64,000 nt of DNA from Maribacter sp. (GTDB taxonomy: Bacteria > Bacteroidota > Bacteroidia > Flavobacteriales > Flavobacteriaceae), in assembly GCA_011050675.1 (NCBI GenBank), contig DRFI01000027.1, positions 1 through 64,000 on the forward strand, in the 5' to 3' direction. Each line of letters opens with the position of its first letter. Position 1 is the first letter of the stretch. The position numbers and the translations under genes were made by a program. Positions 21,554 through 61,383 of this stretch are shown here, one piece after another. The notes under the pieces were generated by a model. It was not told the DNA's origin. It saw only the letters and a list, made by a program, of their open reading frames with translations, and did not search any database.

Positions 21554-22561
21554 TCAAAGATTGACTGCTTCCCCAGTTACTGAAGAAGTATACGCTGCAT
21601 TTACAATATCTAACACAATTTGTCCTTCTAAAATACCAGGAATAGGGGGAATTCGAGTTCTTATACAATCCACAAAATGTTCCATTTGTTTAGTGTAAAT
21701 TATTTGGGCACAGTGATCTTCACGTTTTGGAAGGTTAGGTATAATTTCTTCGGAAGACTCTACACCTGTCGTTAGTTTCAACTTTGTAGGAAATAGACTG
21801 GCATAACCTTTTGTTCCAAAAAGCCCTGTACTAGCTTCGGGACCGTCCATGTGAGGATGCCACCAACCACTTTCAATAATACTTTCTGCTCCGTTGTCCC
21901 ATGTAATGACTATAATGCCAGTATCATCGACATCATAGTCGCCGAATTGGGTTGAAATTCTAGCATACACTTTAATAGGCTTTGGGTCGCCTAATAGATA
22001 TCTCGCAGTATCAATGGCATGAACACCCATATCTGCAAGTGCACCACCACCTGCTAATTTTTTATTTGTAAACCATCCTTCCGGTCCCCAGTTTTCGTGA
22101 ATTCCGTAACCTTTAGTTTTGAATATTTTTCCTAATTTACCCTCATCAATAGCGTTTTTGATATAATTAGTGTCAATATCGAAACGCCACATATGACCAA
22201 CCATTACCAATCTATCGTTTGCTTTGGCTGCAGCATTAATTTGATGTCCTTCCTTGGGATTAATTCCCATAGGCTTCTCAAGAAAAACGTCTTTTCCACT
22301 TTCTATAAATGAAATGGCATAAGGGGCATGAAATTGATTGGGCGTGCTAATGATGACACCATCAATTTCATCATTCTCAATTACTTTAGATATATCTGTA
22401 TATGCTTCTTTGATATTATACTTAGCTGCAAAATTTTTGGCACTTTCGATATGTTTAGAAACCACACATATAATCTCTATATCGGGTATAGTTTGCAATC
22501 CACGGGCATGAAAGTCTGCAATATAACCGACTCCAATAAGTGCTATTTTAATAGTTTTCAT
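21554..22561 (-). CDS. Gfo/Idh/MocA-family NAD(P)-dependent sugar oxidoreductase
   Basis: 335 aa. A Rossmann domain starts with IALIGVGYIADFHARG (6-20). The family's catalytic lysine lies in EKP (K96), and the second active-site region reads GGGALADMGVHAIDTARYLLG with D177 and H181. Members oxidise or reduce hydroxyl groups of sugars, inositols and amino-sugar derivatives, and the substrate here is unknown. It has no signal peptide and is cytoplasmic. It is the last gene of a minus-strand cluster, two bases after the upstream phosphatase gene. The same cluster holds a DegT aminotransferase; paired DegT and Gfo/Idh enzymes interconvert amino, keto and hydroxy sugars in several known pathways. 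Confidence 0.92.
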   Translation of the reverse strand: MKTIKIALIGVGYIADFHARGLQTIPDIEIICVVSKHIESAKNFAAKYNIKEAYTDISKVIENDEIDGVIISTPNQFHAPYAISFIESGKDVFLEKPMGINPKEGHQINAAAKANDRLVMVGHMWRFDIDTNYIKNAIDEGKLGKIFKTKGYGIHENWGPEGWFTNKKLAGGGALADMGVHAIDTARYLLGDPKPIKVYARISTQFGDYDVDDTGIIVITWDNGAESIIESGWWHPHMDGPEASTGLFGTKGYASLFPTKLKLTTGVESSEEIIPNLPKREDHCAQIIYTKQMEHFVDCIRTRIPPIPGILEGQIVLDIVNAAYTSSVTGEAVNL

Positions 22562-22563
22562 AG

Positions 22564-24342
22564 TTACTTTTTTATTAAAAACTCATCAACAATTTCGCCT
22601 ACTTTGTTATAAGTTGTGTATTTCAAAGTCTTATCGGTCAATGTCATATATTGGTAAAATTGACCATCCTTGAACCTTTTTTCAGCATAAGGTTCTTCGC
22701 CAATATCATCATGATTTCCGCTTGTTCCTATAGATACTGCATATACAGTTCCATCTTTAAAAGAGTCCACAACCTTTCTGTTATTAATAGGCTTTGAGCG
22801 CATATAATAATGAATATGACCAGACATAACCATATCAACATGGTATGTATCAAAAAGACCACCCCATTCTTGTTGAATGTCTAAATAAGGTTCCTCAAAA
22901 TTATATGGTGGAAAATGGAATATGGCGAACTTCCAAGTGGCATCCGAGTTTTTTAACTGACTCTCTATCCATTGAGTTTGTGCCTCATTAGGTTGAGTAG
23001 AGTCAATCATTAGAAATAAAGCATTTCCATATTTAAATGCATATGTGCTTTCTGGATCTACATTCTCAGGTCCGTTTTCAGGTAAACTAAATAGTTGATA
23101 ATACATCCAAGCTCCCAAACCATCTTGCCTATCATGATTTCCAGGAACTGGCATTAATGGTTTATTGGAGAACACATCTTTTGAATATCCAAAAAATTGA
23201 TCCCATTCGGATCGGTAAAGTCCAGTGGTTACAACATCACCTGCAATTGAATAAAATGAAGTTTCTGGGTGTCGAAAGTTCGCATCTTTAAGTAGCTCTG
23301 CCCATTTAGGGTCTCTATGCGTATCTCCAAACCAGATAAACGAGAAATCCTTCGTATCCTCTGCTTCGGTTTTAAAATTTCTGACGGATGACCATGATGT
23401 GCCTTCTTCGGAACCAACGCGATATTCATAGATACTTCCGGCCTCCAAGTTTTTTAGATTAGATGTAAATCGATTAATATATCTGTCATTATATAACATT
23501 CTATCTTCCATACCTGATACGGATGCCTTTGAGGCAAGGGTGTCAGAAGTGTTTTTTTTCCAATATTGCACAGTTCCTTCTTTGACGGTAGTATTGGACC
23601 TCCATTGAATATCCATTGAATTTGAGGGGTCCTCACTCCAGGTAAGTACAATCTGATCTGGGTTATTTGAAGATGGGAACATTGTTTTTCGAAAGGCGCC
23701 TTCAACATGCGCTTCTCTAGCCCGTCCTCTCACTGTAGTAAATAATATTTGACCTTCAAGTTCTTTGGGTAAATCCGAAATTTTTAGGTCTGACCAATCA
23801 TGGTAGGTAAAAGCTCCTTTTTTAAAATCTTCTAAAGAATATTCTTCAGGATAACGTTCTGTGATTTTTAGATTATCATTACTATTCATTGCACCTACTG
23901 AAATAAAATAGGTAACTCTGTCCATGTCAAACCCAGGTATTCCCAGATTTACCCAGCCAGAGGTAAAATCTTTCGTCCAAACTTCGTATTCATAGACTTC
24001 ATTTTTTACAAATTCATTAGTTTTTACAAAGCCGCTTTCTTTTAGCCAAAAAGGTATGGTGGCTTGATCAACGTGTCTCATCAATGAAACGGTTACAGGT
24101 ACATTTACCTTAAAATATTGGTAGCGGGTGGCTAATACTGATTTTTCTCTCTTGGTCAAAAACTTGAGCATAAAAGTATCGTCAATAGTATTATAATTAT
24201 TTGGCGCTACGTTTTCATACAACCTTGTGATTACAGTATCCATTACCCCTTTTACAGAAGCATTTTTTTGTGATTCTTCTTTCTTGCTTTCGGAACAGGA
24301 AAAAACTAGCAATAGGGCGGAAACAACTAAGTATCTTCTCAT
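22564..24342 (-). CDS. Purple-acid-phosphatase-like metallophosphoesterase, lipoprotein
   Basis: 592 aa. The lipoprotein signal MRRYLVVSALLLVFSC points to the periplasm or cell surface. Residues ~30-210 are an unassigned region, ~215-320 a fibronectin-like domain as at the N-terminus of purple acid phosphatases (DQIVLTWSEDPSNSMDIQW), and ~325-560 the calcineurin-like domain. All five metal/phosphate motifs are visible: FIWFGDTH, SIAGDVV, PVPGNHDRQ, FHFPPY and MSGHIHYY. It should release phosphate from organic esters, with the natural substrate unknown. It is one of four metallophosphoesterases in this window. It lies 73 bases after the GDPD gene and two bases before the oxidoreductase, probably in one transcript. 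Confidence 0.92.
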   Translation of the reverse strand: MRRYLVVSALLLVFSCSESKKEESQKNASVKGVMDTVITRLYENVAPNNYNTIDDTFMLKFLTKREKSVLATRYQYFKVNVPVTVSLMRHVDQATIPFWLKESGFVKTNEFVKNEVYEYEVWTKDFTSGWVNLGIPGFDMDRVTYFISVGAMNSNDNLKITERYPEEYSLEDFKKGAFTYHDWSDLKISDLPKELEGQILFTTVRGRAREAHVEGAFRKTMFPSSNNPDQIVLTWSEDPSNSMDIQWRSNTTVKEGTVQYWKKNTSDTLASKASVSGMEDRMLYNDRYINRFTSNLKNLEAGSIYEYRVGSEEGTSWSSVRNFKTEAEDTKDFSFIWFGDTHRDPKWAELLKDANFRHPETSFYSIAGDVVTTGLYRSEWDQFFGYSKDVFSNKPLMPVPGNHDRQDGLGAWMYYQLFSLPENGPENVDPESTYAFKYGNALFLMIDSTQPNEAQTQWIESQLKNSDATWKFAIFHFPPYNFEEPYLDIQQEWGGLFDTYHVDMVMSGHIHYYMRSKPINNRKVVDSFKDGTVYAVSIGTSGNHDDIGEEPYAEKRFKDGQFYQYMTLTDKTLKYTTYNKVGEIVDEFLIKK

Positions 24343-24415
24343 TTGACTATAATATGTTTATTGCTCGAATTTTGGATATTTTTCAAATCCATATTTAAGT
24401 GGTTTGGCTAGGTAC

Positions 24416-25234
24416 CTATTTCGTTTTAGAGAAAGCATTGAGCATATCCACCAAATGGTCAGTTAGGATAAAATCGACTCCTGCTTCTAATAATTCTTTT
24501 ATTTCAGTTGTTTCTTCAGAGTGAAAATAATTGACTTTAATCCCGTTCTCATTTAATTTTTTTAAATCTGTCAAAATATTTATATCATCTCTACTACTTT
24601 TTATTTGAAGGAATGCAAAGCCATTTTCTATGGTGCCATCAATATAATCGGCTCGTGTTTTTAAACGTTCCATATTACATATCATAAGGTTGGTGTTGAC
24701 ACTCTTTACTCCTTTTGCAGCATCATTTTCACAGGCAATAACTGATTGATGTGTTCTATTTGCTGCAATCACGGCTTTTGCTGTTGCCGCCCCTAAACGT
24801 TCATCTCCTTTTAAATGAATATTCAACCATATATTCCGAGGCATTATATCCAGAACTTCCATCAAGGTAGGAACCCTTTCCCCTTTGAACTTTCGTGATT
24901 TCCATTTCCCTGCATCAAATTTTTTAATTTTATTTAGCGTAAGATTACTAACATAGCCACGGCCATTAGTAGTTCTGTTCACCTTATCATCGTGCATAAT
25001 CACTAACTGATTGTCTTTGGTCAGTTGAACATCAAACTCTATCATCTGCGCACCTAATCGAATAGCCTCTTCAAATGCCGCTAAGGTATTTTCAGGGTGG
25101 GTTTCATTGGCACCTCTATGAGCACAAATACCCTGTTCAGGTAAACTGTCTTGCTTATTACTTTCAAGGGGATCCTGTGAAAAAATAGCAGTAGAATACA
25201 TAAGAAGAAAAACAAGGCTTATAGATAATTTCAT
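24416..25234 (-). CDS. Glycerophosphodiester phosphodiesterase, secreted
   Basis: 272 aa with a cleavable signal peptide (MKLSISLVFLLMYSTAIFSQ), so periplasmic. The GDPD motif set is present: CAHRGANETHPENT (catalytic H39, R40, metal ligand E48), IEFDVQ (E66, D68) and VIMHDDKVNRTT (catalytic H81), with a C-terminal DFILTDHLV. Such enzymes hydrolyse glycerophosphodiesters to glycerol-3-phosphate plus an alcohol. It sits between the aminotransferase and purple-acid-phosphatase genes on the same strand, so diester cleavage followed by monoester cleavage may act together. The C-terminal half is less conserved, and specificity for another phosphodiester is possible. Confidence 0.92.
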   Translation of the reverse strand: MKLSISLVFLLMYSTAIFSQDPLESNKQDSLPEQGICAHRGANETHPENTLAAFEEAIRLGAQMIEFDVQLTKDNQLVIMHDDKVNRTTNGRGYVSNLTLNKIKKFDAGKWKSRKFKGERVPTLMEVLDIMPRNIWLNIHLKGDERLGAATAKAVIAANRTHQSVIACENDAAKGVKSVNTNLMICNMERLKTRADYIDGTIENGFAFLQIKSSRDDINILTDLKKLNENGIKVNYFHSEETTEIKELLEAGVDFILTDHLVDMLNAFSKTK

Positions 25235-25294
25235 ATGTTAAAATATATTTCCTTTAAAAGTCAGCTATTTCTATGTGAAGACTAGGTTAACTGC

Positions 25295-26581
25295 TCAATC
25301 GATCAATTCCTCAGCATGGGTGTAAATCTTCTTTATAGCTTGTGCCACTAAATCCATATCCGCCTTTGACCCCATTAATACTTTGTGATGGACGCAAACT
25401 GACTCTTCTTTGAAGATACGTTCACAGACAGGTAAAGAAAATCTTTTGGGGTCAATAGCTTTCCAATACGTATCGTTTAATTTATGTCTAGCAGGTTTTG
25501 TGTGCGGAACGTATAAAGAACAATTGTTCAATGGCTCGTAACTGGCATCTACTATGAGTCCTAATTCAGCCTCTAAGGCACTTCTAAATTTTTCAATAGG
25601 CAAGCCTTTAAAGTCATTTTTATAATACCTAAATGCAAAATTAAAGTAAGCTTTTTTTGTTTCTCTTTTATCGCGTGTAATAGGAGCGACCCCTTTAATT
25701 TTAGAGAGTAATGCATTTAAATATTCACCGTTTGCATCTCTATTGGCATTTTGCGCTGGTAGACGTTTAAGACCTTCAACCAAGATAGCTGCTTGGAATT
25801 CAGTTATTCTAAGATTTCCAGACTGAATAAAATTGCCGTCATCATCTCCATAATCCCCTGCACCCTTATCTACGCCTTCAAAGGTATCAGCTTCAGGTCT
25901 TCTTCCACAGTTTCTAAGTGCGTCTAGTTTATCTGCTAAATCAGAATTATTTGTAGTTACAGAACCACCTTCACCTGCGGTCAAATGTTTGGATAATTGA
26001 TAACTAAAACTACCAATATCACCAATACTACCGGCTTTTTTGCCATTCCATTCCCCACCATGCTTATGAGCACAATCTTCAATAACATAAAGATTGTGTT
26101 TTTTGGCAATAGCCATAACAGCATCCATGTCGGCAAAAGCGCCGTATAGATGTACTGGTATAATAGCCTTTGTTCTTGGAGTTATTGCTTTTTCAATTTC
26201 TTTAGGATCAATACACCAGTTATCTTCACTGACATCTACCAAAATTGGAGTAGCATTTACGTCAATTACGGTAGCGGCAGTTGCTTGCCAGGTTAGACCC
26301 GGCACAATAACCTCATCGCCCATACCTATGCCCAAAGCTTCAAGGGCAATTTGCAAGGTAATAGTTCCATTTACAGTACAAATAGCATGTTTTACTCCAG
26401 TGAATTCAGCGAAAAGTCGATTGAATTCTATCTCTTTTGGTCCATTATAGGACCAAACCCCACTATTAAGAACTTCAATTAGTGCAACCTCTTCTTCTTT
26501 ACCCCAAACAGGCCATTTAGGCCAAGGTTGTGCTGTTATATCGCGACAGGGACTTCCACCTTTAATTGCTAGTTTCTCCAT
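25295..26581 (-). CDS. DegT/DnrJ/EryC1/StrS-family PLP aminotransferase
   Basis: 428 aa, fold-type I PLP enzyme. Seen: IKGGSPCR and PVWG at the N-terminus, VNGTITLQIAL, EDCAHKHGGEWNGKKAGSIGDIGSFSYQLSKHLTAGEGG with the Schiff-base lysine at K198 and the cofactor-binding Asp at D169. The family moves amino groups to or from keto sugars and keto cyclitols. The GGxP start and AHKHG motif resemble the scyllo-inosose/3-keto-glucose branch rather than the nucleotide-sugar branch, though I cannot prove this without a tree. Its first 20 bases overlap the end of the GH2 gene, so the two are translationally coupled. This supports a joint role with the glycosidase, possibly in deaminating a released amino sugar. 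Confidence 0.93.
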   Translation of the reverse strand: MEKLAIKGGSPCRDITAQPWPKWPVWGKEEEVALIEVLNSGVWSYNGPKEIEFNRLFAEFTGVKHAICTVNGTITLQIALEALGIGMGDEVIVPGLTWQATAATVIDVNATPILVDVSEDNWCIDPKEIEKAITPRTKAIIPVHLYGAFADMDAVMAIAKKHNLYVIEDCAHKHGGEWNGKKAGSIGDIGSFSYQLSKHLTAGEGGSVTTNNSDLADKLDALRNCGRRPEADTFEGVDKGAGDYGDDDGNFIQSGNLRITEFQAAILVEGLKRLPAQNANRDANGEYLNALLSKIKGVAPITRDKRETKKAYFNFAFRYYKNDFKGLPIEKFRSALEAELGLIVDASYEPLNNCSLYVPHTKPARHKLNDTYWKAIDPKRFSLPVCERIFKEESVCVHHKVLMGSKADMDLVAQAIKKIYTHAEELID

Positions 26582-29165
26582 AAGTAATTTTATTTGAATT
26601 CCAGGCTTCGATTTTGAGTTCGACCTCGGTGTTATATTTGAATGTTGCGTTTAATGTTCTTCGTTCCCCAGGGAGTAGACTAATAAAATTATCTTCCCAA
26701 AAAATAGGTAAAATAGGTTCTCCGTTATTTTTATCCTCCAATTTAAGGTTGATTAGAAAAGCAATTACTTCTCCTGTATTTTCAAGAGTTACTGTCACTT
26801 GCTGTTCTTCTTCAATTTTTGTAAAATTAGAATCTACAGCGATATTAACTTTATTAAGGGTGTTAAGTAATGAAAAGTCAGCATATATCTTACTAGGTGT
26901 ATGATAGGCAAATTCGCCTAAATCGGCTTCATAGTCTAATGTTTCTTCTTTAGTGGATAGCCAATAAAAGTTGGTGTCGATTTCCCTATTAGTGTCATCA
27001 ATTAAACGCAGATCAATAAAATAAGTAGTGGACAAGTTATTCAAGTCTTCAATTTCATATAAAGGATGAAAGGTATCCTCTGAAATAGTAAAGTCTAAAG
27101 TTTTGTCTAAATATAATTTTGAATCAATATCATAAATACGGATTCGGGCACGTAAGTTTTCTACAATATGTGAATAATCGTTAATGGCATAAACTTTATG
27201 ATCACCGTAATTGTATACAAGGTGCAATGGAGAACAGGCTTTTTGGGTAGCATAAAAAGCCCCCGTCGGCATAAGATAATAGTCATAAAGCTGCCAATAC
27301 ATTTTTGGCCAAGCTGCATTCAACATCCATTGAATGATACCAGTTGATCGATTTTTGTGAACTTGGAAGGCCTCGAACATAGGGCGCATCAATTCATAGT
27401 TCATCGCTTGTGCCTTTTTATCGAAATCCTCGATATTAGCTGGAGCTCCATATCGTTCATTAATGGCTTTAACAAACCGACTTAGATCTGCAAACTCATA
27501 GCGACCACAGTGATAATTCCATACATCACTTATGGGCCAAAGTTTCTCCTCAGGAATAAATTTCTTTAAACTTTCTAATTGGGGTACTTGGGCACCTGGA
27601 CCTGTTTCGGTATTGAAACCATAAGCACCTCCAAAATTGGTATCAGTAAACCAATAAACTGGTGCGGTATACGCATAAGGACCCAACATTTTTACACCCG
27701 AAGAGCCACTAATTTCGCTGATAACATCTTCACTTCCAATGACATGTTGGTCGCTTCCTACTCCTCCAGTTGAATTCAAATAGGGGCGGGTAGGGTCATA
27801 TTTAGCGAAGGTATCAATGTATTTTTGTTCTAATTCGGTAATAGGAACTTTGTCACTGGCGACTGTCCATACGAATATGCTAGGGTGGTTACGTAACCAT
27901 ATTAACTGATCTTCCCAAGCTTGGGCAACATGATCAATGTCTTCGGGTTTGTAAACCCCTCCAAAACGTTCATTTACAGGTACACCCATATGAATTTCAT
28001 GCTCCCAATGGCAACTCCAGCCTACCATTAGTAAAATACCATGTTCGTCACAAAGGTCATATAGTTTATGGTCTTTTCCCCAAAAGCCTTCCAAACGAAT
28101 CGTATTTAAATTCATTTGTTTGACATATTTTACCTGTGCTTCAATATTTTCGTCAGTGTCCATTAATAAAAGATCGTCCGTCCAACCAGCACCTTTAATC
28201 AAGACTTTTTTACCGTTGATTTTATACCCACGGTGAATATCATTTAACCAATAGTCTTCAACTTCGCGAATACCAAATCTTATTTCAGTGGTATCGGAAA
28301 TATTGTTATTTGTGATAAATTGAAGTTCTAATTCATAAAGATTCGGATTTCCTAAATGAACAGGCCACCAAAGTCGAGGATTATCTAAATTTAATTGGGG
28401 ATATGCTGAAGGGTCATATTGGATGGTCATCGAGCAATTTGGACCTATAGTTACCTGATGTTCAAATTGTATATTTTCTATTTTACCGACTAGAATACCA
28501 GAAATTGCTGCGCTAGTATTGTTTAGTAATTCTGCGGAAACTGTAATTGATGCCTTATTTAAATTCTTAAGGTCAAGCTTTGACTGAACAAAAGGATTTT
28601 TAATCTCAACACCCATATATAAATGAAGTGTAACATTTCTAAATATACCCATGTTACCATCTGGTGGAGCTGGGTTCCAATCTACGAAGCCAGTACTGAA
28701 GTCTCCCGGTTTAGGAGGGATAATTTCTATAGCTAATATATTTTCGCCCTCAATAATTGCGGTACTAGCATTGAAAGAAGTAATACGATATGCTCCATTT
28801 ATAGATTTAAAGTCGGCAATTAAAATTCCATTTAACCAAACATTAGCCTTGTAATTTATGCCATCAAAATTTAAATTAGCATTTAAGTCTGCTTGGTCCT
28901 TAGAAATTTGAAATGAAGTTGTATACCACCACGGGACTTCAAACTGTTCCGTAGGAATGTTTTTTAGATTTTCACCAAAATAGGGGTCTTTATATATTTG
29001 ATTAGCAACTAAAGTGCCTAAAACTGTAGAGGGAACTTTGGTAGGTAACCAGTTGGTTGAAAGTTTGGTATTCGTAGAGATTTCTTTTCCGTCTTGGGAA
29101 ATATGTTCGGAGGATTGGATTTTCCAATCCTCGGTCAACTTAATCTGAAAGGTTTTGTTCGACAT
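26562..29165 (-). CDS. GH2 glycosidase of the exo-beta-glucosaminidase/beta-mannosidase type
   Basis: 867 aa. The order is GH2: jelly-roll (about 40-185), Ig-like domain (190-300), TIM barrel (320-640), and C-terminal Ig-like domains. The acid/base motif after HPSIFVW reads VASD (S437-D438) instead of the usual Asn-Glu. The nucleophile motif is FNTETGPG (E520). Ser-Asp is the hallmark of the exo-beta-D-glucosaminidase (CsxA-like) subgroup of GH2, so removal of beta-linked glucosamine or a related amino sugar is the best guess. Beta-mannosidase is the alternative. There is no signal peptide, so it probably acts in the cytoplasm on imported oligosaccharide. It overlaps the aminotransferase gene and follows the SSS carrier and two small membrane proteins. 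Confidence 0.9.
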   Translation of the reverse strand: MSNKTFQIKLTEDWKIQSSEHISQDGKEISTNTKLSTNWLPTKVPSTVLGTLVANQIYKDPYFGENLKNIPTEQFEVPWWYTTSFQISKDQADLNANLNFDGINYKANVWLNGILIADFKSINGAYRITSFNASTAIIEGENILAIEIIPPKPGDFSTGFVDWNPAPPDGNMGIFRNVTLHLYMGVEIKNPFVQSKLDLKNLNKASITVSAELLNNTSAAISGILVGKIENIQFEHQVTIGPNCSMTIQYDPSAYPQLNLDNPRLWWPVHLGNPNLYELELQFITNNNISDTTEIRFGIREVEDYWLNDIHRGYKINGKKVLIKGAGWTDDLLLMDTDENIEAQVKYVKQMNLNTIRLEGFWGKDHKLYDLCDEHGILLMVGWSCHWEHEIHMGVPVNERFGGVYKPEDIDHVAQAWEDQLIWLRNHPSIFVWTVASDKVPITELEQKYIDTFAKYDPTRPYLNSTGGVGSDQHVIGSEDVISEISGSSGVKMLGPYAYTAPVYWFTDTNFGGAYGFNTETGPGAQVPQLESLKKFIPEEKLWPISDVWNYHCGRYEFADLSRFVKAINERYGAPANIEDFDKKAQAMNYELMRPMFEAFQVHKNRSTGIIQWMLNAAWPKMYWQLYDYYLMPTGAFYATQKACSPLHLVYNYGDHKVYAINDYSHIVENLRARIRIYDIDSKLYLDKTLDFTISEDTFHPLYEIEDLNNLSTTYFIDLRLIDDTNREIDTNFYWLSTKEETLDYEADLGEFAYHTPSKIYADFSLLNTLNKVNIAVDSNFTKIEEEQQVTVTLENTGEVIAFLINLKLEDKNNGEPILPIFWEDNFISLLPGERRTLNATFKYNTEVELKIEAWNSNKITYGETSN

Positions 29166-29184
29166 GTGGATTACATTATAATAA

Positions 29185-29409
29185 CTACTTGGCTTTCAAT
29201 TTTTTTATGGTATTTCTTGCTTTCCATATCATACCTCCTCCAATAGAGATAAGAAGTAAACCTGCAATCATATCCGTCATATGTTCGATAAAAGTTTCAG
29301 TGTAAATCATTGCAAAAAGCACAATACACCCAAAAACCAAAATAAAAAACCCAAGAGCATTATTAATTTGAGCGGCTTTTATGCCTGCATTTATTTCATT
29401 TGTCTCCAT
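29185..29409 (-). CDS. Small two-helix membrane protein, 74 aa
   Basis: METNEINAGIKAAQ, then two hydrophobic segments (about 18-38 and 47-62) and a basic tail ARNTIKKLKAK. I do not recognise a family. It lies between the GH2 gene (20 bases) and another small membrane protein gene (20 bases) on the same strand, downstream of an SSS symporter. It may be an accessory subunit of the carrier, but nothing in the sequence shows this directly. The tight spacing and the start with an ATG in an otherwise compact operon make it a credible gene. Confidence 0.7.
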   Translation of the reverse strand: METNEINAGIKAAQINNALGFFILVFGCIVLFAMIYTETFIEHMTDMIAGLLLISIGGGMIWKARNTIKKLKAK

Positions 29410-29429
29410 ATTTTTTTTGATTATAGGGG

Positions 29430-29645
29430 TTAAAAGTTATTATAGATCGAAGCCAAAATAGATAGTACGGCTATTGACCATAGTTTTAAATTATTCCACC
29501 AGTGACGATCTTCCTTTGCTATACCCTCATAAACATATTCATTGGGTAATAACAGAACTAAAAGACCTATTACTGCATATAAACAAAGAAATATCATTTT
29601 TGCAGTTTCTTGCGAAACATCGGAAAGCCAATCAAAATTGAACAT
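29430..29645 (-). CDS. Small membrane protein, 71 aa
   Basis: Starting from the ATG at 29645, one base beyond the stop codon of the SSS gene, the protein is MFNFDWLSDVSQETAK followed by two hydrophobic segments (about 17-33 and 52-68) separated by a charged loop with a KEDRHWWNN stretch. An upstream extension of the frame would overlap the carrier gene and adds unlike residues, so I reject it. No family is recognised. The one-base gap implies translational coupling with the symporter, which suggests a partner protein made in step with it. Confidence 0.7.
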   Translation of the reverse strand: MFNFDWLSDVSQETAKMIFLCLYAVIGLLVLLLPNEYVYEGIAKEDRHWWNNLKLWSIAVLSILASIYNNF

Positions 29646-29646
29646 A

Positions 29647-31155
29647 TTACAGATTTTTATTTTTCGATAAAATTTTGGAACTAAACACAAGACCTTGCAA
29701 CTGCTCTGCCGTATGTTTCTTAGTCAGTGAACTAACAGATATGTTTATAATAACACCTAGTAAGAACGACCACCAAGAAATATAAAGAAATGGATCTTCT
29801 ATGGTAAAGAATTGCTCTTTGAAAACATTTAGATAAACGGCAAATCCTATTCCTATAACCAATGCCGAAAGCCCTCCCCATTCCGTTGACCTTTTCCAGA
29901 ATATACCTAATAGGAGAATGGAGAATATAGGTCCTTGGAAATAAGACATAAAGGTTTGAATAGCTACGTAAATACCAGGAAAATCACTACTAATTGGAGA
30001 GGTAGCTACTCCTATTACCAACAAAACCAAGGTAGTAATTTGTCCAACTTTTAAATAATGCTTGTCATCGGCTCCCTTTTTAATAAACGGTTCGTAGATA
30101 TCTTTTGTAAATAAGGTTGCAGTGGAATTTAATAACGAATCTACACTAGACATTAATCCCGCAAAAAATGCTGCAAACATTAAGCCTACTAAACCAGGAG
30201 GTAAAATAGATTTGATCATTAAAGGAAGTGCTTGATCTCCGTCTGCCAATCCAGGATGAACTACGACAGCCATAAGACCCGGAAACAAAACCAATATGGG
30301 AATAAACATTTTAAGGGCAGAACCAAAAATCATACTTGCTTTTGCGTGCCATTCGTTTTTCGCGGTAAGACAGCGCTGTACGATTGACTGGTTTCCTATC
30401 ATATAAGCGTTGGCCATAACAAAGGTTAGACCGAATAGAATTCCTGTCCAGGGAAAGGGAGATTTCGTATTCTGTGGTTGTATGATGTCAAAATGATTTC
30501 TATACTCAGGTCCCATTGTTGCGATTTTTTCAACCATATTATCCCAACCACCAACTTCGTAAAGACTTAGAAAAACCAATGCAAAACCACCGATAAACAT
30601 AATTACGAATTGTACTACATCGGTCATGATTACTGCGGTAATACCACCAAAATAAGTATAAAGACCAACTACACCAGCAGTCGAAACAATAGAAATCCAT
30701 ATAGGCCAACCCATTAGAACATTTAATAGTACGGCACTGGCCCAAAAAAGGACACCTAAATCCAAAGCGAAAAATAAAATCCAAGTTACGGATGCAATGG
30801 TTCTTACCTTTTGGTTATACCTTCTCCCCAAATATTCTGGTATAGTATACATACCTCCACGCCAGAAATACGGAATAAAAATAAATGCGGCTAATAACAT
30901 TGCAGGTACAGATCCAACCCAATCAAAATTTCCAACCGAAATTCCGTAACGGTAGGCTTGTCCTGAGACTCCTACAAAATCTAAGGCTCCTATATCAGAA
31001 ACAACGATGGACATACCTATAGCCCAAAATGGTAAACTTTTCCCGCCTAAAAAATAATCTTCAGAACTATTAACGAACTTTTTGAAATAGAGCCCCAATA
31101 AAAGCATTCCAATGATATAGGCTATTACAATAAAATAATCAATTCCTGCGAGCAT
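29647..31155 (-). CDS. Sodium:solute symporter (SSS family)
   Basis: 502-aa membrane protein with about 13 transmembrane helices. Motifs: EDYFLGGKSLPFWAIGMSIVVSDIGALDFVGVSG (31-64), GRRYNQKVR, YTYFGGITAVIMTDVVQF, and AAFFAGLMSSVDSLLNSTATLF. These define the SGLT-like branch that carries sugars, cyclitols or sialic acid with sodium. It is the first gene of the minus-strand cluster and is followed by two small membrane proteins, a cytoplasmic GH2, an aminotransferase and an oxidoreductase. It could therefore import a small oligosaccharide or amino sugar for those enzymes. The upstream 911-base region separates it from the divergent susC gene. It is only distantly similar to the 8741-10333 carrier. 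Confidence 0.9.
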   Translation of the reverse strand: MLAGIDYFIVIAYIIGMLLLGLYFKKFVNSSEDYFLGGKSLPFWAIGMSIVVSDIGALDFVGVSGQAYRYGISVGNFDWVGSVPAMLLAAFIFIPYFWRGGMYTIPEYLGRRYNQKVRTIASVTWILFFALDLGVLFWASAVLLNVLMGWPIWISIVSTAGVVGLYTYFGGITAVIMTDVVQFVIMFIGGFALVFLSLYEVGGWDNMVEKIATMGPEYRNHFDIIQPQNTKSPFPWTGILFGLTFVMANAYMIGNQSIVQRCLTAKNEWHAKASMIFGSALKMFIPILVLFPGLMAVVVHPGLADGDQALPLMIKSILPPGLVGLMFAAFFAGLMSSVDSLLNSTATLFTKDIYEPFIKKGADDKHYLKVGQITTLVLLVIGVATSPISSDFPGIYVAIQTFMSYFQGPIFSILLLGIFWKRSTEWGGLSALVIGIGFAVYLNVFKEQFFTIEDPFLYISWWSFLLGVIINISVSSLTKKHTAEQLQGLVFSSKILSKNKNL

Positions 31156-32066: not shown

Positions 32067-35000
32067 ATGAAAAAAAGAAACTTACAGTGGTTGATGTTTC
32101 TTCTGTTAAGTATGTTTTTTGGTGTCGCACATGCACAGCAAAAAGTTACGGGAGTCGTCAGCAGTATTGATGAAGAATTATTACCTGGGGTTTCAGTAGT
32201 ATTAAAAGGGACTGTTACCGGAGTATCTACTGATTTTGATGGAGTTTATAATATTGAAGTACCTAATAATGATGCAGTTTTAGTGTTTTCTTATTTAGGG
32301 ATGACCACACAGGAAGTTGTTGTAGGTAATCGTACTATTATAAATATGGCTTTGGATTTTTCTTCTGAGGCGTTAGATGAAGTCGTAGTTACAGCACTTG
32401 GTATTTCGAGGGAAAAGAAATCTCTAGGTTATTCTGTATCAGAAGTAGATGGTGATGATATTACAACGGTTACTCAAGAAAATGCGTTGAATGCATTAAA
32501 TGGTAGAGTATCTGGTGTTCAGATTAATTCAACTGGTGGAGCAGGATCTACAGTTAGTGTTATACTTCGTGGAGCATCTTCATTAACGACAGATAATCAA
32601 CCATTATATGTTATTGATGGTGTGCCACTTTCAAGTAGTTTAACCAATATAGGTAGTGTGGGTAGTGGTACTGCTGTAGATTACGGTGGAGGTATTAGCG
32701 ATGTTAACCCAGATGATATTGCTAGTATATCTGTTTTGAAAGGACCTAGTGCGGCCGCATTATATGGATCTAGAGGTGGTAATGGTGTTATATTAATAAC
32801 AACAAAATCTGGTAAAAAGAGTAAAGGCTTGGGCATTTCTTTCAGTTCAAGTAATGTTTATGAAACTCCCTATAAGTTTTTAGAAAAGAGTAATCTTTTT
32901 GCAAATGGTAGTCGTCCAGATCCAACAACATCTGCAATTGATGAAAATTCATCAGGATGGGTAGGACCAGAATTAGATTCAGGATTAAATGTAATACAGT
33001 GGCCTTACACGGCAGATGAAATAGCAAGTGGCGTTGCGAATGCAACTCCATTAACTTCTAGAGGTAAAAATAATGCTAAAAACTTTTTCGAATCTGCAAT
33101 TACTTCAACCAATACAATTGCTGTTGAAAATAATTCTGATCGAATGAATTATCGTATGTCTTATACGAATATGAGACATGAAGGTTTTATTCCAAATTCA
33201 GACTTACAACGAAATACTTTTTCCATTAATAGTGGATTTGATGTAAATGATAAATTAAAAATAACTACAAGTTTAAAATATGTTCTTTCAGGTGCGGATA
33301 ACCGACCATCAACAACTGATAGGAATGCAAATCCTTTACAGGCAATTTATGATATCAACCCTCATATTGATGTTCGTGATTTGAAAGATTATTGGTTAAT
33401 AGAAGGACAGAGTCAGAATACACCTTATAATTTTGGAGATGATCCATCTGAGTTTGAATTTAATAACCCATACTTCGTTGCAAATGAAATCAATAATGGT
33501 TTTGAGAGAAAAAGGTTATATGGTAATATTCAAGGAGATTACAAAATTTCAGATAAATTATCACTAATGCTACGCTATGCTTATAATGATAGTCATGAAG
33601 TAAGAGAAACTAAAATATCAAGTGGTTTTAATAGAGAAATAAATGGAGCCTATGGTATTGTAAATATTGATGGTGTTGAGAGTAATGCTGACTTCTTACT
33701 TTCGTATAAAGATAAATTAAGTGAGAACTTTAATTTTGGCTTTTCTGCTGGTGGTAATACAAGAAATGTTAGTAATGGTATTGTATCCACTCAAACTAAA
33801 AATGGTGGTGCAGGTTTGATTATTCCTAATTTATTTCTGTTGTCTAATATAGCATCTGACAATATTGAATATTCTGAAATACAAACTAAAGAACGTGTAA
33901 ATAGTTTGTATGCACTAGGTAATATTAGTTATAAAGACATGATGTATGTAGACGCAACACTTAGAAATGATTGGTCAAGTACATTGCCTGATAATGATAA
34001 TAGTTTCCTATATCCGTCAGTTTCTACAAGTATTCTAATGAATAATATATTTGATCTGGGTAGTAATGTATCCTTGTTAAAATTGCGCGTAGGTTGGGCA
34101 CAAGCAGGTAATGATACAAGTGCTCACAATTTATTTACTATTTTGAGTAATTCAGGAGATTGGGGAACCGCGTCGCAATTGACACTACCTGAAGATTTAA
34201 AGAACGATAAGATTAAAGCAGAACTTAATACGTCAACAGAATATGGGGTTGATTTATCGCTTTTCAAGAATCGTTTGACAATGGATTTTACATACTATGA
34301 GTCTGATAATGAAAATCAAATTTTTCAGAAATCCCTTCCTATTTCATCTGGTGCATCAAGTAAATTATTTAATGCAGGTAATATAAACAGTACTGGTTTC
34401 GAAGCTAGTTTAGGTGGTACTCTTATTGAAAAGGCAGATTTTAATTGGAATATGAATTTGACCTACTCAACCAACAAAACAATTATTACTGAATTAGCTG
34501 AAGGTACTGATTTTGTGAAATTTTGGGGAGAAGCAAAAGGTGGTGCATATACCTGGGTAGGCGAAGAAGTTGGTCAAATAATTGATCGTGATTTTGTTCG
34601 TGTTGATGATCCAAACTCTCCTTATCACGGTTGGCCGTTATTAGATGACGAAGGATGGGAAGATAGTGATCGTACGTTATCCGATGAAGATGGGAATAGA
34701 GCTGCTCCAGTTATTGGTAACTACAATCCAGATTTTAAACTAGGTTTACAAACATCAATTCAATACAAAAACTGGAATCTATCCATGAATTTTGATTGGA
34801 GAAAGGGTGGTCAGTTTGTTTCTCAGACACATCGTTATTATGAGTCTGATCTTCAGACTACAAGATGGCTTGATAAAGTTATTGACTTAAGTGATGTGGG
34901 TGATATACCAACGTATATCAAAAACAATGCGGATCGATTCTTATCACCAAATGGCGAGTTCTATCCACTTGTTGGAGGTCCAACAGCTGAATACGGTGGT

Positions 35001-35426
35001 TTTCCTGTTGATGATTTAAATGACGGGGTTTTTCTACCAGGGGTAATTGGTTCTTATGATGACGATGGTAACTTTGTCGCTGATCAAGAAAACATTGGTG
35101 GACCAGGAACACAGTATCATACTTATGGGGATAATTATCCTTGGGATTTTACTAGAGCTTCTACATTTGATGCTGATTATTTAAAATTAAGACAGATTTC
35201 AATTGGCTATACATTTGATAGTGAATTTTCTCATAAAATTGGAATGCGCAATTTATCGCTTTCATTGTTTAGTCGAAATATCATCTTATGGACAAAAGCG
35301 GGAATTAATATTGATCCAGAATCTGCATTTCAAAATTCAGGAGGCGTATTGTCACAAGGTGTGGAAAGATTTAATGTTCAGCCATGGGCAATTCCAGTAG
35401 GTATTAAATTAAACGCAAGTTTTTAA
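32067..35426 (+). CDS. SusC/RagA-family TonB-dependent outer-membrane transporter
   Basis: 1119 aa. Signal peptide 1-24 (FFGVAHAQQ), a carboxypeptidase-regulatory-like beta-sandwich (27-97), the TonB box DEVVVTAL (104-111), a plug domain with GISREKKSLGYSV, GRVSGVQI, ILRGASSL and YVIDGVP (115-240), and then a large beta-barrel ending in an aromatic strand. It has no N-terminal STN domain, so anti-sigma signalling through this transporter is not expected. Together with the SusD lipoprotein 21 bases downstream it imports oligosaccharides across the outer membrane using TonB energy. It is the first gene of a plus-strand operon that continues with a glycosidase-like protein, kinase, isomerase and MFS carrier. 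Confidence 0.96.
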   Translation: MKKRNLQWLMFLLLSMFFGVAHAQQKVTGVVSSIDEELLPGVSVVLKGTVTGVSTDFDGVYNIEVPNNDAVLVFSYLGMTTQEVVVGNRTIINMALDFSSEALDEVVVTALGISREKKSLGYSVSEVDGDDITTVTQENALNALNGRVSGVQINSTGGAGSTVSVILRGASSLTTDNQPLYVIDGVPLSSSLTNIGSVGSGTAVDYGGGISDVNPDDIASISVLKGPSAAALYGSRGGNGVILITTKSGKKSKGLGISFSSSNVYETPYKFLEKSNLFANGSRPDPTTSAIDENSSGWVGPELDSGLNVIQWPYTADEIASGVANATPLTSRGKNNAKNFFESAITSTNTIAVENNSDRMNYRMSYTNMRHEGFIPNSDLQRNTFSINSGFDVNDKLKITTSLKYVLSGADNRPSTTDRNANPLQAIYDINPHIDVRDLKDYWLIEGQSQNTPYNFGDDPSEFEFNNPYFVANEINNGFERKRLYGNIQGDYKISDKLSLMLRYAYNDSHEVRETKISSGFNREINGAYGIVNIDGVESNADFLLSYKDKLSENFNFGFSAGGNTRNVSNGIVSTQTKNGGAGLIIPNLFLLSNIASDNIEYSEIQTKERVNSLYALGNISYKDMMYVDATLRNDWSSTLPDNDNSFLYPSVSTSILMNNIFDLGSNVSLLKLRVGWAQAGNDTSAHNLFTILSNSGDWGTASQLTLPEDLKNDKIKAELNTSTEYGVDLSLFKNRLTMDFTYYESDNENQIFQKSLPISSGASSKLFNAGNINSTGFEASLGGTLIEKADFNWNMNLTYSTNKTIITELAEGTDFVKFWGEAKGGAYTWVGEEVGQIIDRDFVRVDDPNSPYHGWPLLDDEGWEDSDRTLSDEDGNRAAPVIGNYNPDFKLGLQTSIQYKNWNLSMNFDWRKGGQFVSQTHRYYESDLQTTRWLDKVIDLSDVGDIPTYIKNNADRFLSPNGEFYPLVGGPTAEYGGFPVDDLNDGVFLPGVIGSYDDDGNFVADQENIGGPGTQYHTYGDNYPWDFTRASTFDADYLKLRQISIGYTFDSEFSHKIGMRNLSLSLFSRNIILWTKAGINIDPESAFQNSGGVLSQGVERFNVQPWAIPVGIKLNASF

Positions 35427-35447
35427 ATAAAATTAAATAATAAGAAA

Positions 35448-37136
35448 ATGAAATTAATGAAAAACATAGCTATTATATTTCTATTGATTCCATTATTGCT
35501 TGTAACTTCTTGCGATAACGATCTTGCTGAAATAAATGAGAACCCTAATGGGATAGAGCCTAGTGAGGCTGACCCAAATTTGTTGATGAGCGCAGTAATG
35601 ACTGGTTTGGCGACAAGTACCACTAAAAGAGGATACAGTAATGATACTGGTAATGCTGCTCAATTCACTCAGCGTGATTCTTGGTCAAGTAATCGTTATG
35701 ATTGGGAGACAGGTACGATTTGGACAGAGAATTATAAATTATTGAGAACTAATAAAGTTGCTTATGATAGGGCGGTAGAACTTAATCTAACTTTTCATGA
35801 AGGAGTAACTTTAATATTGAAATCAATGTTATTTGGAAACTTAACCGATTATTATGGAGACATTCCTTATTCAGAAGCTTTACAAGGTATTGAATTAGAA
35901 GGGGAACGACCAGCCTACGATTCGCAAGAATCTATTTACAAGGGAGTTATTTCAGATTTAGAAACGGCTTCAAGCCTTTTAAGTGCTACAAATTATGAAG
36001 GAGTTTTAGATAACCAAGATGTGTTTTATGGAGGTGACGCTTCAAAGTGGCAAAAATTGGCTAACTCATTAGCTTTACGTTATTATATGCGCTTGTCTGA
36101 AAAACTACCCGCTTTTGCTCAAGCTGGGGTAACTAGTACACTTGCTAAACCTTTGTTTAGCGATATCGATGATGAACTTGTTCTAAGTTACATTGGTGGT
36201 ATTGATGAACAATCTTGGCCTAGTAGTGGTCAATTTGGTTCGGCTTCTGAGTTTTATAGGGTAAAACCATGTACTACGTTAACAGATAAGTTGAAGGAGT
36301 TAGAGGATCCAAGAATTTCTGTTTGGTTCGCACCGGTTGAAGTACCTACAAAAGTAGTGCCTGCAGCTGAAGTTCCTGGTGGTGGTGATTTGGCGGAAAC
36401 TGATGGTGTTCGCTACATTAATTCAGAAACATTAGATTCCAATGATTATGCCATATACTCTGCCGCAACTTACGCAGCAGATTTAGAAGCAGGTAAGAAG
36501 CTAATTGATACAAGTAGTGTCTATGTAGGTTTACCGGTAGCCGTAAGTGGTATAGACCCCTATGAATATAATCTGAATTCAGAAGGTTCAAGAGGAGGTA
36601 CAAATGCATACGTATCAAGAATGAATGAAGTATTTAATCAGAAAGATGACGGAGGAAACCTTTTAAAAGCTAGATTGTTTTCTTATGCTGAATTATCATT
36701 CTTAAAGGCGGAAGCAGCAGTAAGAGGCTGGGGTTCAGATGCAGAAGGTAATTATTTGCAAGGTATTAAAGCTTCTTTAGAAGTATGGGATCTTGAGGAA
36801 AACTATACTGATTATATTGAGGGTGAGGGAGTTGCTTTTGATGGTTCTTTAGACATAATAATTCAACAAAAATGGATTGCTAATATGTTTAATGGAGATG
36901 AGGCCTATATGGATTGGAGAAGAACAGGTTTGCCTGACTTAAAAGCAGGACCATTTGCTCGTGAAGATGTTATGCCATTAAGATTCATTTACCCTAGTGA
37001 TGAAATAGATTTAAATAGTGCTAATAATGCCGTTGGTGCTGCCTCTTTAGAAGGAACATCTTATAGTACTACTGATTCTAATGACAGCCCTTATGCTAGA
37101 CCATGGATAGTACAAGGTGTTGCAAAACCTTGGTAA
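35448..37136 (+). CDS. SusD/RagB-family glycan-binding lipoprotein (SusD-like group 2)
   Basis: 562 aa with a lipoprotein signal ending at C22 (LLVTSC). The N-terminal NENPNGIEPSEADPNLLMSAVM and the GNLTDYYGDIPYSEA and WQKLANSLALRYYMRLS segments place it in the SusD-like_2 group. It is surface-exposed, capping the SusC channel and helping to select ligand. The C-terminal EAYMDWRRTGLPDL and SPYARPWIVQ are usual for the group. The ATG at 35448 is used here; a second ATG at 35457 would give an equally good signal peptide. A strong terminator lies 55 bases after the stop, so most transcription probably ends here and the distal genes are made at a lower level or from another promoter. Confidence 0.95.
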   Translation: MKLMKNIAIIFLLIPLLLVTSCDNDLAEINENPNGIEPSEADPNLLMSAVMTGLATSTTKRGYSNDTGNAAQFTQRDSWSSNRYDWETGTIWTENYKLLRTNKVAYDRAVELNLTFHEGVTLILKSMLFGNLTDYYGDIPYSEALQGIELEGERPAYDSQESIYKGVISDLETASSLLSATNYEGVLDNQDVFYGGDASKWQKLANSLALRYYMRLSEKLPAFAQAGVTSTLAKPLFSDIDDELVLSYIGGIDEQSWPSSGQFGSASEFYRVKPCTTLTDKLKELEDPRISVWFAPVEVPTKVVPAAEVPGGGDLAETDGVRYINSETLDSNDYAIYSAATYAADLEAGKKLIDTSSVYVGLPVAVSGIDPYEYNLNSEGSRGGTNAYVSRMNEVFNQKDDGGNLLKARLFSYAELSFLKAEAAVRGWGSDAEGNYLQGIKASLEVWDLEENYTDYIEGEGVAFDGSLDIIIQQKWIANMFNGDEAYMDWRRTGLPDLKAGPFAREDVMPLRFIYPSDEIDLNSANNAVGAASLEGTSYSTTDSNDSPYARPWIVQGVAKPW

Positions 37137-44327: not shown

Positions 44328-46457
44328 CTATTGAGGAATTAAATCATGATACTTCGCGAAGTAATAGGGCAAAAGATAAAAAGTGCCTTCGTGCTCTGAA
44401 TAGCCATTTCCTTCTGAATCGTGAAGGTCAAAAGCATCTCTGTCTAATCGAACATGTCCGCGTTCATCAATAGGCAGTGCATAAGAATCCACCCCCCACC
44501 CCATATCAGTTTTCTGAGCGGGTGTAGTATCGAAAAGTATATCAAGACGATGGGTATTGTCCATTTCGTATCCAATAAGATCTAAGGGGATACGTTGTAA
44601 GGTTTCCTTTATGTATTTGGTATCAAGACTACTTTTACCATAGCGATCAATAACTGATTGTGCAAATAAGGGATTTTCTTTAAAAAGTTCACTTGTATTA
44701 AAATAACCTTCGTTTACTTTTTTCGTAAAAGAATTCGCTAATGCTCCATAAAGTCCATCCCAAAAAGCATTTTTTTGTTTGCTAATATTTAACCAAGCAT
44801 ATTCTAGAGAAAGACGATACATCATTAAAAGTTCTGGGTCTTTTTCATAATTAATCAATCCATAAAAGCTCATTAATCCAAGATTGTTATCCCATGGCAC
44901 TACATTTTCAGGTGGAAAAAATTCTTTAGGATGCATGGCATTGATGTGGTAATTTTCTTCATCACGTAGCATTTTTGCTACTTCGTCATATTTAGGGTTT
45001 TCGGTGACATGACTGGCAACATTAAGAAAAGAAAGCATCATCATAGAATTCAACCCACGTTGGTCCCATCCCCAAATAGAGTTAAAATAATCAGGATCAA
45101 AACTGCCCCAACGTGTAGGCATACCATCGTAATCTACCAATTTAAAACTATTACGAATAAGGTGGTCGGTAACATCGGCTACTACTTGTTTTACAGCGGT
45201 TTTCTCTTCTTCGGTTTCAGCAACTAAATCGTAGTAAATTCCATAATAAAAGTAATGCCCTGCCAATTCATCAGAGCTGGTATCACATTTCCATCGGTAT
45301 TTTCCATCTTCGCTTAACGGAAATCTGGGATAGATATCTTTCCAAAACGGATCATTTTTTTGATTTCTTTTATTGTATTCCTGGCTGTACTGCTCGTTTA
45401 CCGGTTCATGCCAATCAACAGGAATGATAACACGAGCAGGGAAACCAGGTACAGATGTAATATCAACCAACCACTTTACGGCCTCAAAACTTCTATCTGC
45501 TATTTCTTTTGCTTCTTTATCTCCTGTAATAGAATAGCGAAAAGCTTGGGCTGCGCCATACATCGCAGTATATTGACCATCATTATCTGAAATGGCAAGT
45601 TCGTAACTGTCAATATTATATTGCTCATTTAAATGATTTTGACAAATGAAACCCATTCTATTATGTCTTTCCTCCGTCTGTTGGGTAAAATAGGATGCCT
45701 TTTCTTCATAGGTCATTTCCTTAGAAATTATTTGGCCAATACCATTATCAGTAGCAACCCAAGCGGTACCATCTTTATCTACAGCAATATCGTTTACTTT
45801 ATTATCAGGTAACCAACGTCTTGAAGTACGATAGTAGAAATAATCATTTTCAGCCCTTATGGCACCATTTTCTGTACCGAACCACACTTCACCATTTGGT
45901 CCGGCAGTAGCACAAGTAAACTGGTTATAAGGCACACCTTCTTTGCCTGTAAACAACTGCCATGTTCCATTGGTATTTTTACCAATACCTTCTTTAGATC
46001 CAAACCATAGATTGCCATTTGAATCTATTACAAGGGCAGACACATTTTTTAATGCCCAGCTATAGTTTTCATCGGCAGGTAATATCTGTTCCCATTTTTT
46101 GTTTTTGACTTTAATGAATAAACCATTTTCACAACCAATATATGTTCGACCTGCATAACTTACTTGGGAAAGTACCTTACCCGAATTCATCGGCAAATTT
46201 TTAAAGTGAGATACCGATTGTTCATTGTAGGTACTACTCGATTTTGCCCATTCATTTCCGTTCCATTGATAAGTATCTTCCGAAGCTATTGCTAAGGGTG
46301 CATTGTTATAAATCTTCATTTTATCAATAGCACCTTTTGGGAGACCTTGTTCGCTATTGTGTATGACCGCAACATCTTGTCTGAATTTGTTTTCTTCCCC
46401 AATTGGTTTAAATGAAGATTGAAGTAACACTATAATTAGTAGTAAAATGGCCCTCAT
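44328..46457 (-). CDS. Exported beta-propeller plus (alpha/alpha)-toroid protein, paralog A
   Basis: 709 aa with a signal peptide (MRAILLLIIVLLQSSF). Residues ~25-275 show repeats typical of two-component-regulator-type propellers (DSNGNLWFGSKEGIG, PNGEVWFGTENGAI, DKDGTAWVATDNGIG). Residues ~285-709 are a helical domain like the (alpha/alpha) barrels of glycosidases and lyases. Motifs shared with paralog B are SDNDGQYTAMY, VPGFPAR, DTSSDELAGH, RWGSFDPDYFNS, and a GTFYLLPYYFAKYH C-terminus. No DNA-binding or kinase domain is present, so it is not a sensor kinase. An uncharacterised polysaccharide-active enzyme is my best guess. It is 54 bases downstream of paralog B. Confidence 0.8.
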   Translation of the reverse strand: MRAILLLIIVLLQSSFKPIGEENKFRQDVAVIHNSEQGLPKGAIDKMKIYNNAPLAIASEDTYQWNGNEWAKSSSTYNEQSVSHFKNLPMNSGKVLSQVSYAGRTYIGCENGLFIKVKNKKWEQILPADENYSWALKNVSALVIDSNGNLWFGSKEGIGKNTNGTWQLFTGKEGVPYNQFTCATAGPNGEVWFGTENGAIRAENDYFYYRTSRRWLPDNKVNDIAVDKDGTAWVATDNGIGQIISKEMTYEEKASYFTQQTEERHNRMGFICQNHLNEQYNIDSYELAISDNDGQYTAMYGAAQAFRYSITGDKEAKEIADRSFEAVKWLVDITSVPGFPARVIIPVDWHEPVNEQYSQEYNKRNQKNDPFWKDIYPRFPLSEDGKYRWKCDTSSDELAGHYFYYGIYYDLVAETEEEKTAVKQVVADVTDHLIRNSFKLVDYDGMPTRWGSFDPDYFNSIWGWDQRGLNSMMMLSFLNVASHVTENPKYDEVAKMLRDEENYHINAMHPKEFFPPENVVPWDNNLGLMSFYGLINYEKDPELLMMYRLSLEYAWLNISKQKNAFWDGLYGALANSFTKKVNEGYFNTSELFKENPLFAQSVIDRYGKSSLDTKYIKETLQRIPLDLIGYEMDNTHRLDILFDTTPAQKTDMGWGVDSYALPIDERGHVRLDRDAFDLHDSEGNGYSEHEGTFYLLPYYFAKYHDLIPQ

Positions 46458-51321: not shown

Positions 51322-51431
51322 ATGCATATCAAGTTATTTTGAATTATTACACTTAAGCTAGTTTCTTATGATCATCAAAGGTTATCTGTAAATTAAGCTT
51401 TTATCTTATTATAGAATATTACCTAGATTTA

Positions 51432-61337: not shown

Positions 61338-61383
61338 GGAAGCTAACATTAAAAATATATACTTATTAATCTTATTCTCAATA

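Follow-up and report, generated by a model that had tools for sequence, protein, structure and literature searches.

A gene cluster of Maribacter sp. that may deaminate amino sugars from glycans with a cyclitol-type aminotransferase

What use would a bacterium that degrades glycans have for an aminotransferase of a lineage known from antibiotic synthesis? The question is raised by a gene cluster of Maribacter sp. (assembly GCA_011050675.1, contig DRFI01000027.1) in a stretch of 64,000 nucleotides, called here the window, which belongs to a genome of 4.7 Mb (contig C27). Eight minus-strand genes follow one another here, the first starting at 31155 and the last ending at 21554: a sodium:solute symporter (SSF), two small membrane proteins of 71 and 74 amino acids, a GH2 glycoside hydrolase, a DegT aminotransferase, a GDPD-family phosphodiesterase, a metallophosphatase and a Gfo/Idh oxidoreductase. 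An earlier note on this DNA had described the carrier, the two small proteins, a GH2 with a Ser-Asp motif and no signal peptide, the overlapping DegT and the oxidoreductase, and we located all of them; its list was incomplete, the GDPD and the purple-acid-type phosphatase between DegT and Gfo/Idh having been overlooked. Our answer, which we believe and doubt in about equal measure, is that the cluster is a catabolic amino-sugar module inside a glycan utilisation locus.

The GH2 is the best characterized member. Its match to CsxA (2vzs), the GH2_16 enzyme of Amycolatopsis orientalis, reaches 495.7 bits over residues 14-858, against 107.9 bits for the next family, beta-mannosidase, and it contains the Ig_GlcNase domain PF18368. 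One source gives as marks of the GH2_16 subfamily an SD replacing the NE acid/base motif and a Glu replacing an active-site His (PMC12243196), and another has the C2 amine bound by Glu394 of CsxA (PMC6566704). In the alignment to CsxA, the window protein shows the acid/base pair Ser437-Asp438, a Glu at the nucleophile position (Glu520) and, at the amine-binding place, Glu359, which aligns to the RLEG of CsxA. Among 60 aligned rows (the window and 59 of the related loci described below, pieces under 60% of the length being excluded), the Glu is present in all and Ser-Asp in 58; the two rows without it, L059 and L060, are a second GH2 paralogue picked by the script. Judged by this signature, the protein is a putative beta-glucosaminide hydrolase of the GH2_16 exo-beta-D-glucosaminidase type and not a beta-mannosidase, in agreement with the earlier note.

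Unlike CsxA, the window GH2 is encoded together with DegT and a sodium symporter, and it has no signal peptide, since an in-frame stop lies about 10 codons upstream of the ATG with no ATG, GTG or TTG seen between. Inspected by eye, the GH2 N-termini of Flavobacteriaceae, Calditrichota and nearly all Planctomycetota rows also lack a signal peptide (L086 has an ambiguous extension), and those of Prolixibacteraceae and related Bacteroidia mostly start with a Sec or lipoprotein-like stretch. A cytoplasmic location of the predicted enzyme is thereby supported for the lineage of the window.

The DegT gene overlaps that of the GH2 by 20 nucleotides. Its best full-length matches in the PDB are 2-deoxy-scyllo-inosose aminotransferases, BtrR and its relatives (5w70, 5w71, 2c7t), with 325 (5w70), 301 and 299 bits; perosamine synthetase (190), 3-amino-5-hydroxybenzoic acid (AHBA) synthase (182), ArnB (172) and NtdA (113) are weaker. 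Compared with 5w70, 176 of 395 positions are identical (44.6%), the last 17 residues of the alignment being uncounted, and the lysine for pyridoxal phosphate, Lys198 in the window, is kept in 70/70 DegT rows. Phylogenetic analysis was based on 28 rows: 17 GH2-linked DegTs chosen from 70 rows, two 2-deoxy-scyllo-inosose aminotransferases and nine other DegTs of the fetched genomes, whose functions are unestablished, with NtdA and StsC themselves absent. The GH2-linked DegTs are sister to the two 2-deoxy-scyllo-inosose aminotransferases (97/94), yet form a separate clade, and long branches were flagged. The DegT of locus L143 branches next (99/95), and three other DegTs of the same genome fall outside. 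Of the 14 tunnel residues named for BtrR (PMC6429434), 8 are identical in the window DegT, 5 differ and 1 has no partner. Unlike BtrR-type enzymes, this DegT stands among glycosidase and import genes and not among antibiotic genes; Pfam matches of the scanned window proteins point neither to a 2-deoxy-scyllo-inosose synthase nor to an aminoglycoside gene. Taken together, the comparisons support a DegT probably closest to free-cyclitol enzymes and not to nucleotide-sugar enzymes with solved structures. As the former score higher in the PDB matches, we do not favour a nucleotide-sugar aminotransferase, and the distance from such enzymes expected by the earlier note is borne out.

The Gfo/Idh protein has a PF01408 Rossmann domain and the catalytic set Lys96, Asp177 and His181, conserved in 55, 53 and 54 rows, respectively, out of 55. 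In the PDB it comes closest to a myo-inositol 2-dehydrogenase (3cea, 101 bits). Against the NCBIfam equivalog for inositol dehydrogenase (IolG) it scores 172 bits, below the cut-off of 355, and against the model for UDP-N-acetylglucosamine (UDP-GlcNAc) 3-dehydrogenase a weak 132 bits, below a cut-off of 450. No IolE was found above cut-off in the genome, which holds seven weak matches, and inositol itself is therefore an improbable end product.

Two known systems pair such enzymes. The NtdA/NtdC/NtdB kanosamine pathway of Bacillus subtilis, which the earlier note had invoked, includes a DegT and a Gfo/Idh, and a HAD gene also follows Gfo/Idh in some relatives of the window cluster. Direction and substrate probably differ from those of the window, NtdA is distant from the window DegT (113 against 325 bits) and the Gfo/Idh is nearest to myo-inositol dehydrogenase; on sequence, the kanosamine model is not favoured. 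The GnnA/GnnB pair consists of a UDP-GlcNAc 3-dehydrogenase and an aminotransferase. The sub-cut-off match of the window Gfo/Idh resembles it, whereas the preference of the DegT for free-cyclitol over nucleotide-sugar enzymes does not.

Is this association maintained elsewhere? A contig scan based on DegT only gave 70 loci, reduced to 69 after L100 (49% over 241 residues) was dropped: 55 in Bacteroidota, 12 in Planctomycetota, 1 in Calditrichota and 1 in another bacterium. With thresholds of at least 38% identity for GH2 and at least 48% for Gfo/Idh within 5 kb of DegT, a GH2 was near DegT in 62 loci, a Gfo/Idh in 52 and both in 47. In six of the seven loci lacking GH2 (L054, L059, L070, L071, L079, L090), at most 2.2 kb separate DegT from the upstream contig end, and L090 retains a 98-residue GH2 piece at the contig edge. 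Gene order differs among lineages, with three kinds of arrangement, yet the GH2-DegT linkage persists; in Planctomycetota, every GH2 and SSF that was matched is encoded on the other strand from DegT (GH2 in 10/12 loci plus the L090 piece, SSF in 11/12). Since Gfo/Idh is less constant than GH2, the core consists of GH2 and DegT with a carrier, and Gfo/Idh is a common third member. The co-occurrence of GH2, DegT and Gfo/Idh proposed by the earlier note thus stands for many genomes and fails as a strict trio, with Gfo/Idh present in only 3/12 Planctomycetota loci.

The carrier points in the same direction. The SSF has as its best PDB match a sodium/glucose-type cotransporter (2xq2, 252 bits). It was matched in 39/69 DegT loci and an MFS carrier of the window's type in 20; 59/69 have one or the other, and none has both. 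The 71-residue open reading frame was matched in exactly the 39 SSF-bearing loci, in Bacteroidota and Planctomycetota alike, and the 74-residue one in 35 of them. This tracking of the SSF, together with the recurrence of GH2 in a scan made with DegT only, is more than chance. Neither small protein has a Pfam match above cut-off, and the 71-residue protein, encoded after the SSF gene, may be a new accessory subunit of the sodium symporter.

GH2 proteins of this kind are more widespread than the DegT. Among 395 sampled Bacteroidota genomes, of which just the best few candidates per genome were scored, a GH2 at 1e-120 was found in 10 and a DegT at 1e-100 only in the window's own; a similar GH2 survey of Planctomycetota found 1/294 genomes, the anchor genome only. 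Eleven GH2 stretches were fetched (nine other survey genomes, L027 and L028). DegT was unseen in ten of these (L139 and L142 are cut near the GH2), and no open reading frame in the eleven had SSF as its best match. In L143, such a GH2 is overlapped by a diverged DegT (42%), and genes close by encode a homologue of the window protein at 37456 and a DUF4838 protein. In a GH2 tree of 69 rows, which omits three linked rows (L059, L060, L082) because they are paralogous or short, linkage to DegT requires two changes, against a mean of 9.5 after shuffling, and the DegT-less L027 sits among linked rows. So DegT depends on GH2 whereas GH2 does without DegT, a pattern expected if the aminotransferase acts on something that GH2 releases.

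The surroundings of the cluster are those of a glycan degrader. A SusC/SusD pair on the plus strand begins 0.9 kb away and is followed by more glycan-type genes, on both strands, up to the end of a GH92 gene at 51327; with SusC/SusD (32067-37136), GH92 and GH2, the region has the gene content of a polysaccharide utilisation locus. A SusC match is present in 26/39 SSF loci. Coordinates are collected in Table 1.

Table 1. Positions in the window of the cluster genes and of selected neighbours.
Feature	Position	Strand	Evidence
SSF (sodium:solute symporter) carrier, SGLT-like	29647..31155	-	PF00474 3.3e-81; best PDB 2xq2
71-residue small membrane protein, probable carrier accessory part	29430..29645	-	ATG start; co-occurs with SSF
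74-residue small membrane protein	29185..29409	-	matched in 35/39 SSF loci
GH2, putative exo-beta-D-glucosaminidase type, without signal peptide	26562..29165	-	CsxA 2vzs match; PF18368; Ser437-Asp438, Glu359
DegT aminotransferase, probably on the 2-deoxy-scyllo-inosose aminotransferase side	25295..26581	-	PF01041 1e-94; 5w70; tree; Lys198
GDPD-family phosphodiesterase, Sec-like N-terminus	24416..25234	-	PF03009 1.5e-42
Metallophosphatase, purple-acid-phosphatase N-domain, lipoprotein-like N-terminus	22564..24342	-	PF16656 5.1e-18, PF00149 8.9e-16
Gfo/Idh/MocA oxidoreductase	21554..22561	-	PF01408 1.5e-28; best PDB 3cea; Lys96, Asp177, His181
SusC-type outer-membrane receptor, divergent neighbour	32067..35426	+	TIGR04056 7.2e-184
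SusD-type lipoprotein	35448..37136	+	PF12771 1.6e-78
GH92	48949-51327		Pfam match

The enzyme families, their catalytic residues, a GH2 apparently without signal peptide and a linkage that crosses phyla suggest the following route. SusC/SusD would carry glycan pieces across the outer membrane, and the GDPD and phosphatase, whose N-termini resemble Sec and lipoprotein signals by eye, may strip phosphate groups outside the cytoplasm. The SSF and the two small proteins would import a short glycoside with a terminal, beta-linked amino sugar of the glucosamine type, a cargo that, like the position of the amino group, we infer. The cytoplasmic GH2 would free this amino sugar, DegT would convert it to a keto sugar by passing the amino group on to a keto acid, and Gfo/Idh would reduce this keto sugar to a common hexose, ready for phosphorylation and glycolysis. 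That DegT and Gfo/Idh use the GH2 product, and in the catabolic direction, is suggested by the context. This order of import, cut, transamination and reduction agrees with the families, location and linkage of the proteins; it is weakest on which sugar is used and in which direction. With more doubt than belief, we extend it to a route shared by three phyla, in which amino sugars of glycans are deaminated by a cyclitol-type transaminase and the keto sugar converted to plain hexose, replacing kinase and deaminase. Every named enzyme is of a known family. We found no report of the gene combination, or of an aminotransferase of this lineage in catabolic use, among the titles and abstract openings listed by searches of the open-access literature, most subscription papers lying outside. 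If the proposal is true, a transaminase lineage known from antibiotic synthesis recycles amino sugars in marine, lake and sediment bacteria, and "biosynthetic" annotations of DegT proteins in glycan degraders need re-examination. The cluster would also give a short list of testable enzymes, and would direct attention to an amino-sugar glycan possibly beyond the reach of ordinary glucosamine metabolism.

Several observations weigh against this catabolic proposal. L088 is the sole real exception to GH2 linkage, with 10 kb on each side of DegT and no GH2. Gfo/Idh was not found near 17/69 DegT genes; two of these loci (L076, L092) break off no more than 1.3 kb beyond DegT on its downstream side, a partial match of 81 residues is present in L067, and when 15 of the 17 genomes were searched (L076 and L084 excluded), an orthologue at 1e-60 was present elsewhere in one only, that of L085. 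Many of the 69 loci are congeners and not independent. The genome has a NagB above cut-off, and MFS or ROK neighbours occur in 6/10 of the DegT-less GH2 stretches, so that glucosamine alone would need no transaminase. The glucosamine/chitobiose loci of Bacteroidota (MFS, ROK, NagB) have the same kind of GH2, with MFS and ROK neighbours in relatives, and unlike the window cluster their stretches lack a DegT or Gfo/Idh step. Pairs of DegT and Gfo/Idh are best known from synthesis. Finally, no role is settled for either GDPD or phosphatase; with matches at 1e-20 in only 21 and 9 of the 69 loci, they are accessory.

A test of the partnership is offered by co-variation, computed on 27 Flavobacteriaceae rows (the window and 26 loci) with SSF, GH2, DegT and Gfo/Idh. 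Pairwise distances of GH2 and Gfo/Idh correlate with r=0.959, against 0.72-0.80 for the other pairs, and with 0.88 when DegT and SSF are allowed for, a control restricted by the slow change of these two. None of 2000 permutations reached the raw value, shared ancestry remaining within the permutation test. GH2 and Gfo/Idh are separated by DegT, in many of the loci by GDPD or phosphatase as well; joint exchange by recombination could be an alternative cause of the co-variation.

The closest relatives of the cluster are in the Flavobacteriaceae genera Arenibacter, Zobellia and Kriegella. No close GH2 relative was found in 35 genomes of the same genus, some of them incomplete (best match 1.5e-16), and the distribution is patchy. 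Identities are also mosaic: Arenibacter is closest for SSF (97%) and DegT (94%), and Zobellia amurskyensis and Kriegella aquimaris for GH2 and Gfo/Idh (83-89%), which share about 64-73% with Arenibacter.

A serious rival is a sugar outside the NagB route, with its amino group elsewhere or with a second one. In the form that we consider, and hold to be unlikely, DegT and Gfo/Idh would use a rarer amino sugar or aminocyclitol (a 3-amino sugar, 2,3-diaminoglucose or an inosamine) from the other half of the glycoside, and the glucosamine freed by GH2 would pass to a kinase and NagB. The position of DegT beside the 2-deoxy-scyllo-inosose aminotransferases agrees with this, as do the shared residues among those listed for the BtrR tunnel, the inositol dehydrogenase as best match of Gfo/Idh and the NagB of the genome. 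On the other side, no such glycan was identified, IolE is missing above cut-off, and GH2 and Gfo/Idh co-vary as though the product of the former were the substrate of the latter.

Improbable in our judgement is the synthetic direction, in which Gfo/Idh would oxidise a sugar or cyclitol supplied by the glycan locus and DegT aminate it, to build a molecule for the cell surface or for signalling. Among proteins of solved structure, those closest to the DegT are indeed synthetic enzymes, such pairs are known from synthesis, and a glycosyltransferase-type protein lies close by in L061. Nevertheless, the Pfam matches of the scanned window-cluster proteins include no glycosyltransferase, nucleotide-sugar or antibiotic gene, and in lineages from three phyla the pair is accompanied by a glycosidase and importers. 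That DegT and Gfo/Idh are mere neighbours with an unrelated task, hitch-hiking on a mobile glycan locus, is very improbable: patchiness, mosaic identities and the occasional absence of Gfo/Idh would suit it, and the GH2-DegT linkage through three kinds of gene arrangement does not.

If the cluster is a catabolic module, its substrate can be guessed from neighbouring genes. A gene with a YdjC domain, the mark of a deacetylase family, follows DegT in L077; GH38 and DUF4838 genes occur in one scanned relative each, and 13 grouped loci, one of them scanned, have GH3-type proteins. With the GH92 of the window, these genes hint at a substrate rich in N-acetylglucosamine and mannose, and an N-glycan is hinted at by all of them except the GH3-type proteins. 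Homologues of GDPD (28-42%) recur in six Bacteroidales-type loci (L061, L067, L071, L075, L079, L101), a hint that the substrate contains a phosphodiester. Because of GDPD and the phosphatase, lipid A or another phosphorylated glycan may also be considered. A glycosylphosphatidylinositol anchor glycan, suggested by the inositol-like enzymes and GDPD, was set aside because its glucosamine is alpha-linked.

Other proteins recur around these genes. In Bacteroidales-type loci, hydrophobic proteins with WGLRG or WAVRG motifs adjoin GH2 or DegT (L065:12606-14000, L063:13304-14719, L082:3366-4637); those of L065 and L063 were scanned and have no Pfam match. In the window, 37456-39786 (+) encodes a protein of 776 residues with weak GH20b, GH67N and DUF4838 matches, all below cut-off, and a predicted structure of low score (predicted local distance difference test, pLDDT, 57). 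L101 and L143 have homologues (51-54%) close to their GH2 and DegT, and the window protein may be an unclassified glycoside hydrolase. The proteins at 46512-48749 (-) and 44328-46457 (-) are related to each other (30% over 594 residues). In the first, the N-half is predicted to be a beta-propeller and the C-half, which has no Pfam name, to be helical; among the matches listed for its model (pLDDT 68.9) are beta-propellers and a few long multi-domain chains, which do not indicate a substrate. It recurs next to DegT in 10 loci and next to the DegT-less GH2 of L027, and the two proteins are possibly candidates for an undescribed glycan-cleaving family. Further along, 58282-62034 (+) encodes a HAD protein (61384) and two more metallophosphatase proteins, of which that at 59745 clearly has a purple-acid-phosphatase N-domain. 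Relatives of the HAD protein (60-68%) are found shortly downstream of Gfo/Idh in L047, L048, L049 and L053.

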